Source: Promethearchaeum sp. (GTDB taxonomy: Archaea > Asgardarchaeota > Lokiarchaeia > Sigyniarchaeales > Promethearchaeaceae). From it: a stretch of DNA of 40,417 nt. The stretch covers positions 1-40,417 of the forward strand of contig JAUWOE010000006.1 in NCBI GenBank assembly GCA_030612265.1. The letters run 5' to 3'. The notes under the pieces are model-generated. The model saw only the letters and a list, made by a program, of their open reading frames with translations, was not told where the DNA came from and made no database searches. Numbering within the stretch: position 1 is the first letter of the stretch; every line of letters begins with the position of its first letter. A program made the translations under genes and the position numbers. This document shows positions 14,242-19,754 of the stretch, piece by piece.

Positions 14242-15495
14242 TTAGAATTTCTTCTTCCAAAACTTGTATGCCCGTAAATATTCCTTGACCGGAATTACTT
14301 TTGGATTACGTCGAAAACTGCTTGATATTACTCCATCACAACGGGAGCATAAATTTGAAGTTCGCATCCAATTTTTAAATTCATCAACATGAGCGGGATA
14401 CCTACAATTGGGGCATACTACAATACCTCGATGCCCGTCAGAAGTGGTAGGAAGTTCAAAACAAAAAATGCATTTAAAATCATCTTTAGTTAATGCTCCG
14501 GTTTTGGGTCTCATACGAAGAAGTTCTTTTTTTCTTGATGATGTGGAAGAACTAGAAGTGTATTGTTGAGATCTTGATGAAGAAGTGGAAGTAGAACGTT
14601 GAGTTCTTGGTGAAGAATATGATTTTTTAGTCTTTTTTGTTTTTGTTTGTTTAATTCTTTCCTGTTCTTGGCGTTTTTTACTGCGTGCCCTTTCTCTTTC
14701 TCTCTCTTTTTGACGCTTCTTACGTTCTTTTTCTTGACGCGCTTGTGCTTGAGCATTACGTTCTCCGCTACGAGCGAAGTTTACAAAATTATCTGCATCT
14801 GATATTCTACGGTCAATATTACTTAATCGATTAGAGACTCGGCTCATGGAAAATCTTGATGTTGAAGGCCGTCGTTTGGCAATAATGATGATAAAATATA
14901 AAATTAAAGTCAATAAATTCAGAAGAATTAGCAAATTTAGTGCTGAAGTTACAGGATTAAAAATCCATATAGCATCAGAAATTACTCCTTGGCTCATCAG
15001 AAGATAAAAAAAATCAATGAGAATGTAAAAAATACTTGTGAATATGATAAAGGTCCTTGCATAAATTGATTTGTTTCCAAAATAGATGCTGGTATATTTA
15101 GAGAGACACAAAAACAACAAAATCATACTTATAAACATATATGGAGTAGCGAAAAGGATGATCCAAGTATTGAAATTTATATCTCCAGAATTCGCATTTT
15201 CACTTAAGATCGTTGTAAAATCTCCCCAGATAGCATAAAAAATTCCCATTCCTAAGCCTCCAAATATGAGTGCAAAGTTATTCAACGACGAATTATATTC
15301 CCGTAATTTTTTAATTTTGGAGACATATTCAATTGAAATACAAATCCAAATTCCAAGTAGAATGAAAGAAAAAAAGCCGTTCAAAGATTCAGCTGGAGAA
15401 TTTCCAGTAAGAAGTGCAATGAAGAAATTTAGTAAGAGTACAATTAAATAAACGATAAATTTGGTTAGATTCATTTTCATTTTTAAATTCTTCAT
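14242..15495 (-). CDS. Multi-TM protein with C-terminal RING-like zinc finger; candidate membrane E3
   Basis: About 6 hydrophobic TM segments, R/K/E/Q/S-rich linker, then 'CIFCFELPTTSDGHRGIVVCPNCRYPAHVDEFKNWMRTSNLCSRC'; 5 nt downstream of the JAMM ORF. Confidence 0.75.
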   Translation of the reverse strand: MKNLKMKMNLTKFIVYLIVLLLNFFIALLTGNSPAESLNGFFSFILLGIWICISIEYVSKIKKLREYNSSLNNFALIFGGLGMGIFYAIWGDFTTILSENANSGDINFNTWIILFATPYMFISMILLFLCLSKYTSIYFGNKSIYARTFIIFTSIFYILIDFFYLLMSQGVISDAIWIFNPVTSALNLLILLNLLTLILYFIIIIAKRRPSTSRFSMSRVSNRLSNIDRRISDADNFVNFARSGERNAQAQARQEKERKKRQKERERERARSKKRQEQERIKQTKTKKTKKSYSSPRTQRSTSTSSSRSQQYTSSSSTSSRKKELLRMRPKTGALTKDDFKCIFCFELPTTSDGHRGIVVCPNCRYPAHVDEFKNWMRTSNLCSRCDGVISSSFRRNPKVIPVKEYLRAYKFWKKKF

Positions 15496-15500
15496 TTTAG

Positions 15501-16337
15501 CTATTCATCATACTCTAAAAATAAATCTTTTCCATCTACAATTGGGCTTGTAAAATCTAATAGTTCTGGTAGTACATTAGGGGTAATGTTCCCTTTAATG
15601 CTAAAGGGCACTTCATACCATTTGGCAGTTTTCAGATTTGCACGGAAAATATTAAACCCATATAAATGTCCATCAATTTGATAAGGATCAATGACCAAAG
15701 CTACTGATTTTTTCCATAATTTTTGATAACGTGCTTGTGTGCCCATATCTTCTGAACTTAAAAAGAGCCCATAGGATGGGTGAGAGTGATACCAACCGCA
15801 AATAAAAAATCCCTTTTTTTGCAAATCGGTATAAGCACGGATATAATTATTATAATCCTTGATTTCTGCATGGATTGCATTTCCATGTCCCATTGGATAA
15901 GCATCTTCAATTAAAAGTGTTTCACCATTATTTTCAAGCTTTCCTGCGAGTAATCCGATAACTTCCACCCATTTGGAGCGATCTATGTTTTCATTTGCAT
16001 ATTTTTTAGCATGAGTAGCGATTTTTAAGATGGCTTTAGCTGAAATCTGTGTTTTTTCTTCTTCTTTGATAGATGTTATTTTTTTTCCAATTTTTTCTTC
16101 TTTTTTTGCTTGCGCACTGTTTTTTTTTACGATTTTCTTGAATTCCAAACTTAGAGAATTATCTTCTAAAATTTTTTTCTCCAATATCTCTTCTTCTTTT
16201 GTCTCTTCGTTTTTCAATTCTTGATAAATTTCTAAAAGAACTTCTTTCTTAATTTCGTTCTTTAATTGTTTACGTATTTCAGTTTTTAATTTTGATTTTA
16301 ATACCTGAATTTCAGGAGTATCTTTATCATTTACCAT
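15501..16337 (-). CDS. JAMM/MPN+ metalloprotease, Rpn11-like deubiquitinase
   Basis: 'EVIGLLAGKL' and 'GWYHSHPSYGLFLSSEDMGTQ' (HxHPx7SxxD) JAMM motif; K/E-rich N-terminal extension. Confidence 0.93.
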   Translation of the reverse strand: MVNDKDTPEIQVLKSKLKTEIRKQLKNEIKKEVLLEIYQELKNEETKEEEILEKKILEDNSLSLEFKKIVKKNSAQAKKEEKIGKKITSIKEEEKTQISAKAILKIATHAKKYANENIDRSKWVEVIGLLAGKLENNGETLLIEDAYPMGHGNAIHAEIKDYNNYIRAYTDLQKKGFFICGWYHSHPSYGLFLSSEDMGTQARYQKLWKKSVALVIDPYQIDGHLYGFNIFRANLKTAKWYEVPFSIKGNITPNVLPELLDFTSPIVDGKDLFLEYDE

Positions 16338-16352
16338 TACTATTACCTGTAT

Positions 16353-16892
16353 TTACCATTTTTTATTAGCGTATTTTTTTACTAAATTTTTCACTTTTTT
16401 ATCGAATTTTTTCCGTTCTTTCATCATTTCTAAAGCAGCTTTTTTATTAAACACATCTGTAGGGTTAATATATTGTCCGGCAGTATTTAGCATGGACGTA
16501 ATTGCTTGAACGACAGTTACAGCAGTCTTAGTGGGACTCCATCCTCCTTTCTTTCCAATGTAATTTGGATCAACAAGAGCTAAACAGATGTTTCTTTGTC
16601 CTGGGTATTCTGAAGGTTTGGGCCAGAAATTTGGATGCCATATTGGAGTGTGTAATCTAACAAATGGCGGTTGGTTCGGGTATTCTCGGGGAAATTTCAT
16701 TTCTAACCTAAATAGTCCTTTCGCAAAGGCCGTTCCTTTTGGTCCAACCAATAAAATCTTCAAGTGATCGATACTTTTCTTTTGGGAATCAAAGGCTTTT
16801 AATTGTTTTATAGTCCCTTCTTTGTATAATTTTTTTAATCGGGCATAATCTTGTGAAATTCTTTTTTGTCTGATGCTCATTGTTATTACCAC
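16353..16892 (-). CDS. Ubiquitin-conjugating enzyme E2 (UBC)
   Basis: 'FRLEMKFPREYPNQPPFVRLHTPIWHPNF...GQRNICLALVDPNYIGKKGGWSPTKTAVTVVQAI': HPN motif and catalytic Cys in NICL. Confidence 0.95.
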   Translation of the reverse strand: MVITMSIRQKRISQDYARLKKLYKEGTIKQLKAFDSQKKSIDHLKILLVGPKGTAFAKGLFRLEMKFPREYPNQPPFVRLHTPIWHPNFWPKPSEYPGQRNICLALVDPNYIGKKGGWSPTKTAVTVVQAITSMLNTAGQYINPTDVFNKKAALEMMKERKKFDKKVKNLVKKYANKKW

Positions 16893-16959: not shown

Positions 16960-18183
16960 CTATTTAAAAAGGCGAATAGTCACAAATATTTCGCCTTCTT
17001 GGAATCCCGATAAGGAGATAAACGAAAGAGAACGAATTTTATTTGCTATAGCTGTTTTCTCTAAATCCAATTCTCGTAATGAATCAAATTCGGGTACAGT
17101 TAAAATTGGCTCCATTTCTTCATCGAGTTTATATCCTTTCATTTTCAAAGCATCTATTATACATTGTAATTTCTGGTCTTTACGGATATATAATTCTTCC
17201 CGTATTACATTTTTCCCGCATTGTAAACATTCTGGATTACGAGGTTTTGTAAGATAATAGAATTTTTGAGTCATACCATTGTAAATTATATATTCTTTAC
17301 TAGGAATCCCCAACGCGGAGTTTCCCTTTTGATAATTAAGTATTTTCAATATTTCTTGAGATTGAATGCTAGCAATAACTGCGTTTATTGTTATTATTCC
17401 GGGTTCGTGATGATCGATAATATTTATTACTTCTTTCACCGTAAATTGTGGGTTAAAATTGAATTTATCTACAAGGTTGTTTGCGAAGGATATCAAGAAA
17501 TTCACATCATCAATATTTCCTGGATTTGGAACAGTAGAAAATTTCTCTTCAAAAGCCATTGTGGCTTTAAATAAACAATGGACGCGTTTACGTGGAACCC
17601 CTACTACTGTACATGCTGCCATTTCATCGCTTTCTGTGGAGGATGTTGGATGGCAATCATAACATGCATTTTCATATGGGAAAATTGTATAAATATGTCC
17701 ATGATATCCATTAACTCCACCATCAACCAGAGGTTTTTTGAAACGAACTGCTTGAAGGTTTAAGTTTATCCTTGCATTCTTTGAATCCAATCCTCCAACG
17801 ATGACATCTGCTTTTTTGAATATCACAGGAGGTAATTTTTCAAGGGAAGTGTGATACCCTTTTAATATAATATTTGGATTAACTTTTTTGAGCATTTCTA
17901 CAGCAGCTATCGCTTTAGGTTTTGCAATGTCCGCATCCATGAATAGAATTTGTCGATTTAAGTTAGAGTGTTCAATTACATCTAAATCTACTAAATCAAT
18001 ATGTCCTACTCCTAGCATTGCTAGATTTTTTGCAATTTCACAGCCGAGTCCCCCTACTCCTACAATTAAGATCCGTGAATTCTTTAAAATCCGCTGATTC
18101 CACCCTTTCAAGCGAAATTGTCTATCATAAAGTTGTCGTTCTTTAGCAGTAAGATCCTTACTGAAAAAATCTGATTCTCCCAA
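16960..18183 (-). CDS. E1-like ubiquitin-activating enzyme (UBA/ThiF)
   Basis: 'ILIVGVGGLGCEIAKNLAMLGVGHIDLVDLDVIEHSNLNRQILF', 'ADVIVGGLDSKNAR', catalytic 'ACTVVGVPRKRVHC', Zn Cys pairs CYDC and CLQC, C-terminal UFD-like tail. Confidence 0.95.
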   Translation of the reverse strand: MGESDFFSKDLTAKERQLYDRQFRLKGWNQRILKNSRILIVGVGGLGCEIAKNLAMLGVGHIDLVDLDVIEHSNLNRQILFMDADIAKPKAIAAVEMLKKVNPNIILKGYHTSLEKLPPVIFKKADVIVGGLDSKNARINLNLQAVRFKKPLVDGGVNGYHGHIYTIFPYENACYDCHPTSSTESDEMAACTVVGVPRKRVHCLFKATMAFEEKFSTVPNPGNIDDVNFLISFANNLVDKFNFNPQFTVKEVINIIDHHEPGIITINAVIASIQSQEILKILNYQKGNSALGIPSKEYIIYNGMTQKFYYLTKPRNPECLQCGKNVIREELYIRKDQKLQCIIDALKMKGYKLDEEMEPILTVPEFDSLRELDLEKTAIANKIRSLSFISLSGFQEGEIFVTIRLFK

Positions 18184-18238: not shown

Positions 18239-18592
18239 TTATATTCCTGCAGTGCTTGCTGGAATCAGTAATATTGTATCCCCGTCTTTTACGGGATAAT
18301 CCATTATTAATTTTCCTTCATCCAAAGTTACACCACCATGGGACAAATGAAAATCGGATGGATTAATTCCAAAGATGTTTCCTACTGTGGTTTTTATATC
18401 TCCCACATTGTTGCCTGTATTAACCAATAGTTTTTGCTTTTTTTCTCCAGGACCAATAGTTGACATAAAGAAAATTGAAATATCTTTCCCTCCAGGAGCT
18501 TGGGCTACATTTGGAGTTTTGGATGCAATAGCAGGTGTTTTATCCTCAATGTCCTCCAAATCTTCATCTAAATCATCAAAATCTTCGCTCAT
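18239..18592 (-). CDS. Ubiquitin-like beta-grasp protein with acidic/KTP N-terminal tail and non-diglycine C-terminus (PASTAGI)
   Basis: First gene of the E1-E2-JAMM operon; 'LLVNTGNNVGDIKTTVGNIFGINPSDFHLSHGGVTLDEGKLIMDYPVKDGDTILLIP' matches ubiquitin fold layout. Confidence 0.88.
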   Translation of the reverse strand: MSEDFDDLDEDLEDIEDKTPAIASKTPNVAQAPGGKDISIFFMSTIGPGEKKQKLLVNTGNNVGDIKTTVGNIFGINPSDFHLSHGGVTLDEGKLIMDYPVKDGDTILLIPASTAGI

Positions 18593-18725: not shown

Positions 18726-19754
18726 TTGGTAATGCAATTTAGATTAGAAGACCTTAATTTTTTCTCCGAAATTATAAATTGTGATAATATGGTTAAGCAA
18801 AAAACACCTGGTCCACCAATTCGCGTTAAAACTCCAGAAATTGTAGAAAAAACACCTAAAATTGTAGAAAAAACTCCCCCTGCTCTAGATATTAATCAAT
18901 TGAAAAGCGAACGGAAAAAACTTGAAGATGAACGTCGAAATTTACAAGAAGAACGTAATCAATGGCAAAAAATTCTTAAAAAAATGCAACAATATTCGGA
19001 TTCATTGGAAGAACTTGAGCAACAACGGCAAGATAAAATCGAGGATATCAGAAATCTCGAAAAAGATCTAAAAGCGACAAAAAGAGAACATAATGATTTA
19101 CAAGATAAGATTGATAGGATGAATCGTGAAAAAGATCGAATAAAAGATGAACGGAATCGCCTGAATCGTGAAAAAGATGATTTGAATCGGGATCGAGATA
19201 GAATTCAAGATGAAAGAGATGCTTTGAAGAAAAAACGCAAACAAGCAGATGCTCGTATTCAAGATGAAAAAGAAACTTTGAGGAAAAAACGTCGACAAGA
19301 AGAAGATCGCCTAAATAAAATCCAACGAAATGCTGATGATGATTTGAAAAGAACTCATCAAAAACGCAAACAGGAAGAAAATGATTTGAATAATATACGT
19401 AATAAAATTCCAAGTTCAGAAAAAAAACTCCGCTCAACTGAAAAAAAAATTAATGATGCTAAACAAGATTGGAATCGAATCAAGCATGATAATGATCTAT
19501 TGAAAAATGAAAATAGACGACTTCAAAATGATAACCGCCGAATCGAAGATGAGAAGAACCGTTTGAAAAAGGAACGAAACAACCTTGAAAAAGAAAAATC
19601 AAAAATAAAACGTTTGGAAAAAGATTTAGATGGCCGAATGCGAAAAGTTCAAAATCTACAACGCGATTTAGAGAATCAAATTCATAAGATAAAGACAAAA
19701 ACTCCCGGAATTAAAACAAAAACTCCTGGAATTAGAACAAAAACACCGAGATAG
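18726..19754 (+). CDS. Long coiled-coil protein with KTP repeats at both termini (likely start at 18789)
   Basis: Extended charged heptad-like region 'ERKKLEDERRNLQEERNQWQ...'; termini 'KQKTPGPPIRVKTPEIVEKTPKIVEKTPP' and 'KTKTPGIKTKTPGIRTKTPR'. Confidence 0.85.
   Translation: MVMQFRLEDLNFFSEIINCDNMVKQKTPGPPIRVKTPEIVEKTPKIVEKTPPALDINQLKSERKKLEDERRNLQEERNQWQKILKKMQQYSDSLEELEQQRQDKIEDIRNLEKDLKATKREHNDLQDKIDRMNREKDRIKDERNRLNREKDDLNRDRDRIQDERDALKKKRKQADARIQDEKETLRKKRRQEEDRLNKIQRNADDDLKRTHQKRKQEENDLNNIRNKIPSSEKKLRSTEKKINDAKQDWNRIKHDNDLLKNENRRLQNDNRRIEDEKNRLKKERNNLEKEKSKIKRLEKDLDGRMRKVQNLQRDLENQIHKIKTKTPGIKTKTPGIRTKTPR

Follow-up and report, generated by a model that had tools for sequence, protein, structure and literature searches.

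The window, i.e. the whole analysed stretch of 40,417 nucleotides of Promethearchaeum sp. DNA, comes from an assembly of 3.77 Mb in 317 contigs that is approximately 80 % complete. Its minus strand carries an operon whose first gene (18239..18592; PF00240, E 6e-05) encodes a ubiquitin-like modifier of 117 aa and is followed, in this order, by genes for an E1, an E2, a JAMM protease and a membrane zinc-finger protein. A ubiquitin-fold modifier, E1, E2 and JAMM are thus encoded together, which is the gene set of an archaeal ubiquitin-conjugation operon. The E1-like activating enzyme (407 aa, 16960..18183, minus strand; ThiF, 1e-58) comprises an adenylation domain, the catalytic-Cys motif AACTVVGVPRKRVHC (C191), located by alignment, and a C-terminal ubiquitin-fold-like region. 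It is 96 % identical to the E1 of Candidatus Prometheoarchaeum sp. CSMAG_2396, the nearest named relative by this enzyme, which points to an Asgard archaeon of Lokiarchaeia type, and its closest solved relatives are UBA1, UBA2 and UBA3, with UBA5 matching far more weakly and Atg7 being a weak, distant match. The E2 conjugating enzyme (approximately 175 aa, 16353..16880, minus strand; UQ_con, 3.2e-26) carries the HPN motif and a Cys within NICLAL, and matches ubiquitin E2 structures. The assignment of both enzymes to the ubiquitin/NEDD8 type, made initially from the sequence alone, was borne out by a UBA1/2/3-like E1 and an HPN-type E2. In the JAMM/MPN+ metalloprotease (278 aa, 15501..16337, minus strand; JAB, 8.1e-16) the motif GWYHSHPSYGLFLSSED is intact, as it is in 10 of the 11 related operon loci checked. 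The membrane protein (417 aa, 14242..15495, minus strand) ends with a CxxC...CxxC...H...CxxC zinc-finger that gave a Pfam Prok-RING_1 match below threshold only; its homologues lie downstream in the operons of relatives, and it is a weak candidate for a RING-like E3.

Divergently from the modifier gene, a coiled-coil protein is encoded on the plus strand (18726..19754), with KTP/KxP motifs at both ends, as in the N-terminal tail of the modifier. Such a protein was found in 43 of the loci read, overlapping copies counted, and it recurs beside the operon across the Loki-type families and family f12. This recurrence suggests an unrecognised component of the system, and the protein is a candidate accessory partner.

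In the modifier, a disordered, acidic N-terminal tail containing two KTP motifs precedes a beta-grasp domain (approximately residues 36–111), and the chain closes with PASTAG-I. In the AlphaFold2 model, based on 20 aligned homologues, the beta-grasp core reached pLDDT above 90 and the N-terminal tail was disordered. The top Foldseek match was the Caldiarchaeum ubiquitin:Rpn11 complex (6fno), with eukaryotic ubiquitins also among the closest solved structures, and ubiquitin ranked first in a profile search of the PDB sequences. The ORF, read from 18592 to 18239, terminates with KDGDTILLIPASTAGI directly before the stop codon. The corresponding DNA end, GCA GGA ATA TAA, confirms the tail LLIPASTAG-Ile and the lack of a terminal GG that had been noted at first sight. 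A comparison with the SAMP/ThiS-type sulfur carriers spoke against such an identity: the ThiS-family matches in the source genome do not include the modifier, and a GG end is present in two of the three clear ones.

The only GG outside the fold, G34-G35, indeed lies directly N-terminal of the beta-grasp domain, as the sequence-only reading had pointed out. It was rejected as a site of cleavage or conjugation since relatives have AGND, AGKK, TAGKK or GSKK at this position.

Homologues were collected from relatives in which the modifier gene lies beside the same E1. In the 97 distinct homologues, picked by the tail pattern, the tail reads IPxSxAG, with AG in 97/97; in the window the motif IPASTAG occupies 18245..18265 (minus strand). 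The P, S, A and G have zero entropy, in part by construction since the sequences in the conservation table were selected by the tail pattern, and the Gly may be followed by any residue or by the stop. The stop comes right after AG in 54 of the 97, and the remaining 43 have one to five unconserved residues before it (one in 15 homologues, two in 19, three to five in 9), representing 27 different extensions. The five complete tails in the modifier's own family bear one extra residue each: I, R, K, M and I. Ala-Gly modifiers are carried by Loki-, Hel-, Sif-, Borr- and Sigynarchaea and by several further Asgard families. As a check on the selection, every profile match failing the tail pattern was listed as well; the intact ones with a neighbouring E1 were confined to a protein ending in STAGG plus ISIAS (G074, family f4) and one from another E1 lineage that ends in IEGG.

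Judged from these sequences, the conservation of the tail is far beyond chance, and the pattern is the one expected if Gly116 were the functional end and the following residues were dispensable. Because relatives either stop after AG or vary beyond it, Gly116 (codon at 18245-18247, minus strand) can be taken as the conserved end and the predicted point of conjugation, and Ile117 (18242..18244, minus strand), for which R, K, M and I occur within the same family, as an unconserved one-residue extension. This agrees with the initial proposal that the loss of one residue would expose a non-diglycine end. The open-licence papers searched contained no account of an Ala-Gly end shared by a whole lineage.

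An extra copy of the modifier, lying downstream of the operon (L086:3-365, plus strand), ends with STAGGISIAS; it has two Gly residues and the longest extension of the copies read.

The position of the tail relative to ubiquitin was established with hhalign, using the human ubiquitin and UFM1 sequences. The modifier matched ubiquitin with a probability of 94 %, the match ending at I110 of the modifier and V70 of ubiquitin. From these residues there are six to the last Gly in both proteins. This endpoint and the equal spacing place Ala115 on Gly75 and Gly116 on Gly76 of ubiquitin, without gaps. Compared with ubiquitin, the penultimate Gly is therefore replaced by Ala, and a short extension may follow the final Gly. 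In the PDB profile search the conserved Gly was also aligned with the C-terminal residue of FAT10 chains (7pyv_C, 159/159; 9ykv_C, 165/165).

Several explanations of this end had to be weighed. A frameshift or assembly error, named beforehand as something that might conceal a GG tail, was conceivable as long as the AG end was known from one genome only; since independent genomes and lineages end alike (STAGR, STAGK, STAGM, STAGI), a sequencing error cannot account for the lack of a diglycine, and this explanation now has practically no probability. A second candidate substrate for the operon E1 does exist: the same genome encodes another ubiquitin-like protein (G000:C224:22712-23002, plus strand, 97 aa) in which 14 residues come after QAGG, whose orthologues end with QAGG or QAGG plus one residue and which scores higher with PF00240 than the operon modifier (36.6 versus 23.6 bits). 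With the canonical GG end of its relatives, it could be the true substrate, leaving the operon modifier as a non-conjugated ubiquitin-like domain. The GG paralogue envisaged by the sequence-only reading is therefore real, but it proved independent of the operon E1: among the 79 genomes of the order, 48 have both, 14 the E1 only, 13 QAGG only and 4 neither (p = 1.0), whereas the Ala-Gly modifier is present in all 62 genomes with the operon E1 (p = 9e-12) and without it in only four of the 79, although both p-values overstate the certainty because related genomes are not independent samples. The contrast between 62/62 for Ala-Gly and 48/62 for QAGG stands apart from the p-values. Moreover, an invariant AG end would be needless for a free-standing domain, and the genomes with QAGG but without the operon E1 have another E1-like protein of 530 aa with an intact catalytic-Cys motif (AACT...HC). 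Its occurrence there makes this protein the better partner candidate for QAGG. Taken together, QAGG as the substrate of the operon E1 is quite unlikely. GG ends are readily detected by the reading of tails applied here, as shown by other E1 operons. Relatives of QAGG adjoin an E1 in Methanomassiliicoccales and Thermoplasmata; GG-ending modifiers, some with short extensions, were found in distant E1 operons of Methanomassiliicoccales, Thermoplasmata, Calditenuaceae, Thaumarchaeota and Wolframiiraptor; and the modifiers of a second Asgard E1 lineage (L127, L129, L130, L126) end with IKGG, IKGGFLSISN or IEGG.

The operon modifier might also never be conjugated at all and serve as a binding domain, e.g. 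for ESCRT-like or coiled-coil partners, with the AG end being structural or a cleavage signal. Members of the fold that cannot be conjugated are indeed known from some relatives, in which a related membrane-anchored ubiquitin-like protein ends with IPSRKK and has no Gly. This role is nevertheless unlikely for the operon modifier, given its strict linkage to E1, E2 and JAMM, the invariant Gly at the position of Gly76 and the stop exactly there in more than half of the homologues. The resemblance to UFM1 suspected earlier holds for the shape of the end: one Gly preceded by a residue other than Gly, a short extension that is removed as two residues in UFM1 and would be removed here, and the same spacing, with IIPRDRVG(SC) and LLIPASTAG(I) aligned by hhalign without gaps. 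The tails of the homologues fit a Gly that would be exposed by trimming. It does not extend to ancestry, as the hhalign probability was 0.7 % for UFM1 against 94 % for ubiquitin and no PF03671 match was obtained in the 79 genomes. The enzymes also differ from UBA5 and UFC1, the E1 being UBA1/2/3-like with UBA5 far weaker and the HPN-bearing E2 matching ubiquitin E2s. That this archaeal system is related or ancestral to UFM1 is therefore highly improbable.

The operon most probably (at about 0.8) represents a ubiquitin-type conjugation system of Asgard archaea, in which the modifier serves as the ubiquitin and has Ala-Gly, not Gly-Gly, as its working C-terminus. Known systems share individual features with it, and Atg8, bacterial cGAS and UFM1 are precedents for a lone terminal Gly. 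Atg8/LC3 likewise has a single terminal Gly, and in yeast Atg8 only a single residue follows it, but the E1 and E2 there are Atg7 and Atg3, the protease Atg4 is a cysteine protease and the target is a lipid. The Atg7/Atg3/Atg4 set is not found in the operon, which has a ubiquitin-type E2, a JAMM protease and an E1 matching Atg7 only weakly. NEDD8 has Ala72, and the equivalent position of the modifier is also Ala (A112), but NEDD8 keeps Gly75-Gly76. In the type II CBASS system cGAS-Cap2-Cap3, E1/E2 conjugation proceeds via a terminal Gly or Ala that is not part of a diglycine, and Cap3 acts as isopeptidase (PMC10097602); in contrast to the Asgard operon, the conjugated cGAS is not of the ubiquitin fold, its next-to-last residue is variable and the system serves bacterial defence. 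The closest parallel in gene content is the operon of Caldiarchaeum subterraneum and Asgard archaea, comprising Ub, E1, E2, a small RING protein and an Rpn11-like JAMM. The gene set, the E1 catalytic-Cys motif, the HPN E2, the JAMM and the ubiquitin fold are common to both, and the Caldiarchaeum precursor likewise has residues beyond the Gly (PMC5654768, PMC6043591). The Caldiarchaeum ubiquitin is, however, cut after Gly-Gly and has a nine-residue extension, whereas the Asgard modifier has Ala-Gly and 0–5 extra residues, and the candidate E3 here is a membrane protein, unlike the small RING protein of Caldiarchaeum. The operon type is thus already known from archaea; on the best reading, this one is a variant of it that differs in the C-terminus of its ubiquitin.

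The solved relatives of E1 and E2 and the intact motifs of E1, E2 and JAMM support ordinary ubiquitin-type activation, transfer and removal, predicted to proceed via Gly116. The modifier would be made with one dispensable residue, Ile117, to be taken off by a protease, most simply the JAMM of the operon. The E1 would then adenylate Gly116 and form a thioester at Cys191 before passing the modifier to the E2, and the membrane zinc-finger protein may help to attach it to amines of the putative targets, from which the JAMM would remove it again. JAMM proteases do not usually clip off just one terminal residue, however, and Ile117 could instead be removed by a carboxypeptidase. The JAMM is also present in loci whose modifier needs no trimming, e.g. 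L028 and L029, so it is not solely a maturation enzyme. As Rpn11 of Caldiarchaeum both matures the ubiquitin precursor and removes conjugates (PMC6043591, PMC5654768), the same two roles are likely, by analogy, for the operon JAMM.

The Gly-Gly end is treated as a near-defining feature of ubiquitin and is policed by the human E1, E2 and E3 (PMC3731359). Human UBA1 and the NEDD8 E1 strongly prefer Gly75, and substitutions of Gly75 impair the later transfer steps (PMC3731359). Because the human enzymes resist such changes, the Asgard ones must, if the Ala-Gly end is the working one, have adapted to Ala. A natural Ala-Gly cascade among the archaea closest to eukaryotes would then mean that E1/E2 chemistry does not in itself require Gly-Gly. 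The Ala-Gly end of the tag, encoded beside its own enzymes here and in about a hundred relatives, suggests that a ubiquitin-type cascade has become adapted to another C-terminal chemistry. Proteomics relying on the Lys-Gly-Gly remnant would miss all targets of such a modifier: trypsin would leave DGDTILLIPASTAG, a remnant of 14 residues, and the mass of an Ala-Gly remnant would equal that of glutamine.

The genomes G123, G129 and G131 contain both the Ala-Gly system and a second E1 system of the IKGG/IEGG type. It is possible, though we put this forward only tentatively, that in much of the Asgard phylum at least two ubiquitin systems operate in parallel, separated by C-terminal chemistry, the Ala-Gly enzymes having a Gly75 pocket that accepts alanine. 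In an equally tentative extension, the Ala-Gly ubiquitin would be read only by its own E1, E2 and JAMM, and the Gly-Gly modifiers by other E1s. If so, the question arises whether the identity of the tail separates parallel modifier systems within one cell.

Further variants were observed in the course of this analysis. The E1-like protein of 530 aa, seen in most genomes of the order (L283:304-1893, minus strand), has the motif AACTLKGIPRNRNHC and no neighbouring E2, and it is a candidate activator of the orphan QAGG modifier. One Lokiarchaeota genome carries a second E1 (L085:1368-2549, minus strand) in which the stretch around the catalytic cysteine is lost; it is possibly a regulatory or decaying copy. 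In family f3 (L066:735-1538, minus strand; L061:5658-6467, plus strand; and similar loci) a protein of approximately 270 aa begins with a hydrophobic segment and closes with a ubiquitin-like domain whose last residues are IPSRKK, without Gly; it is encoded divergently from a second Ala-Gly modifier (PASVAG or PASIAG) near the E1. In Candidatus Borrarchaeum weybense an open frame of 585 aa (L110:6072-7829, minus strand) has a C-terminal ubiquitin-like domain ending with IPSSRAG, as if a large protein had been turned into a conjugatable modifier.
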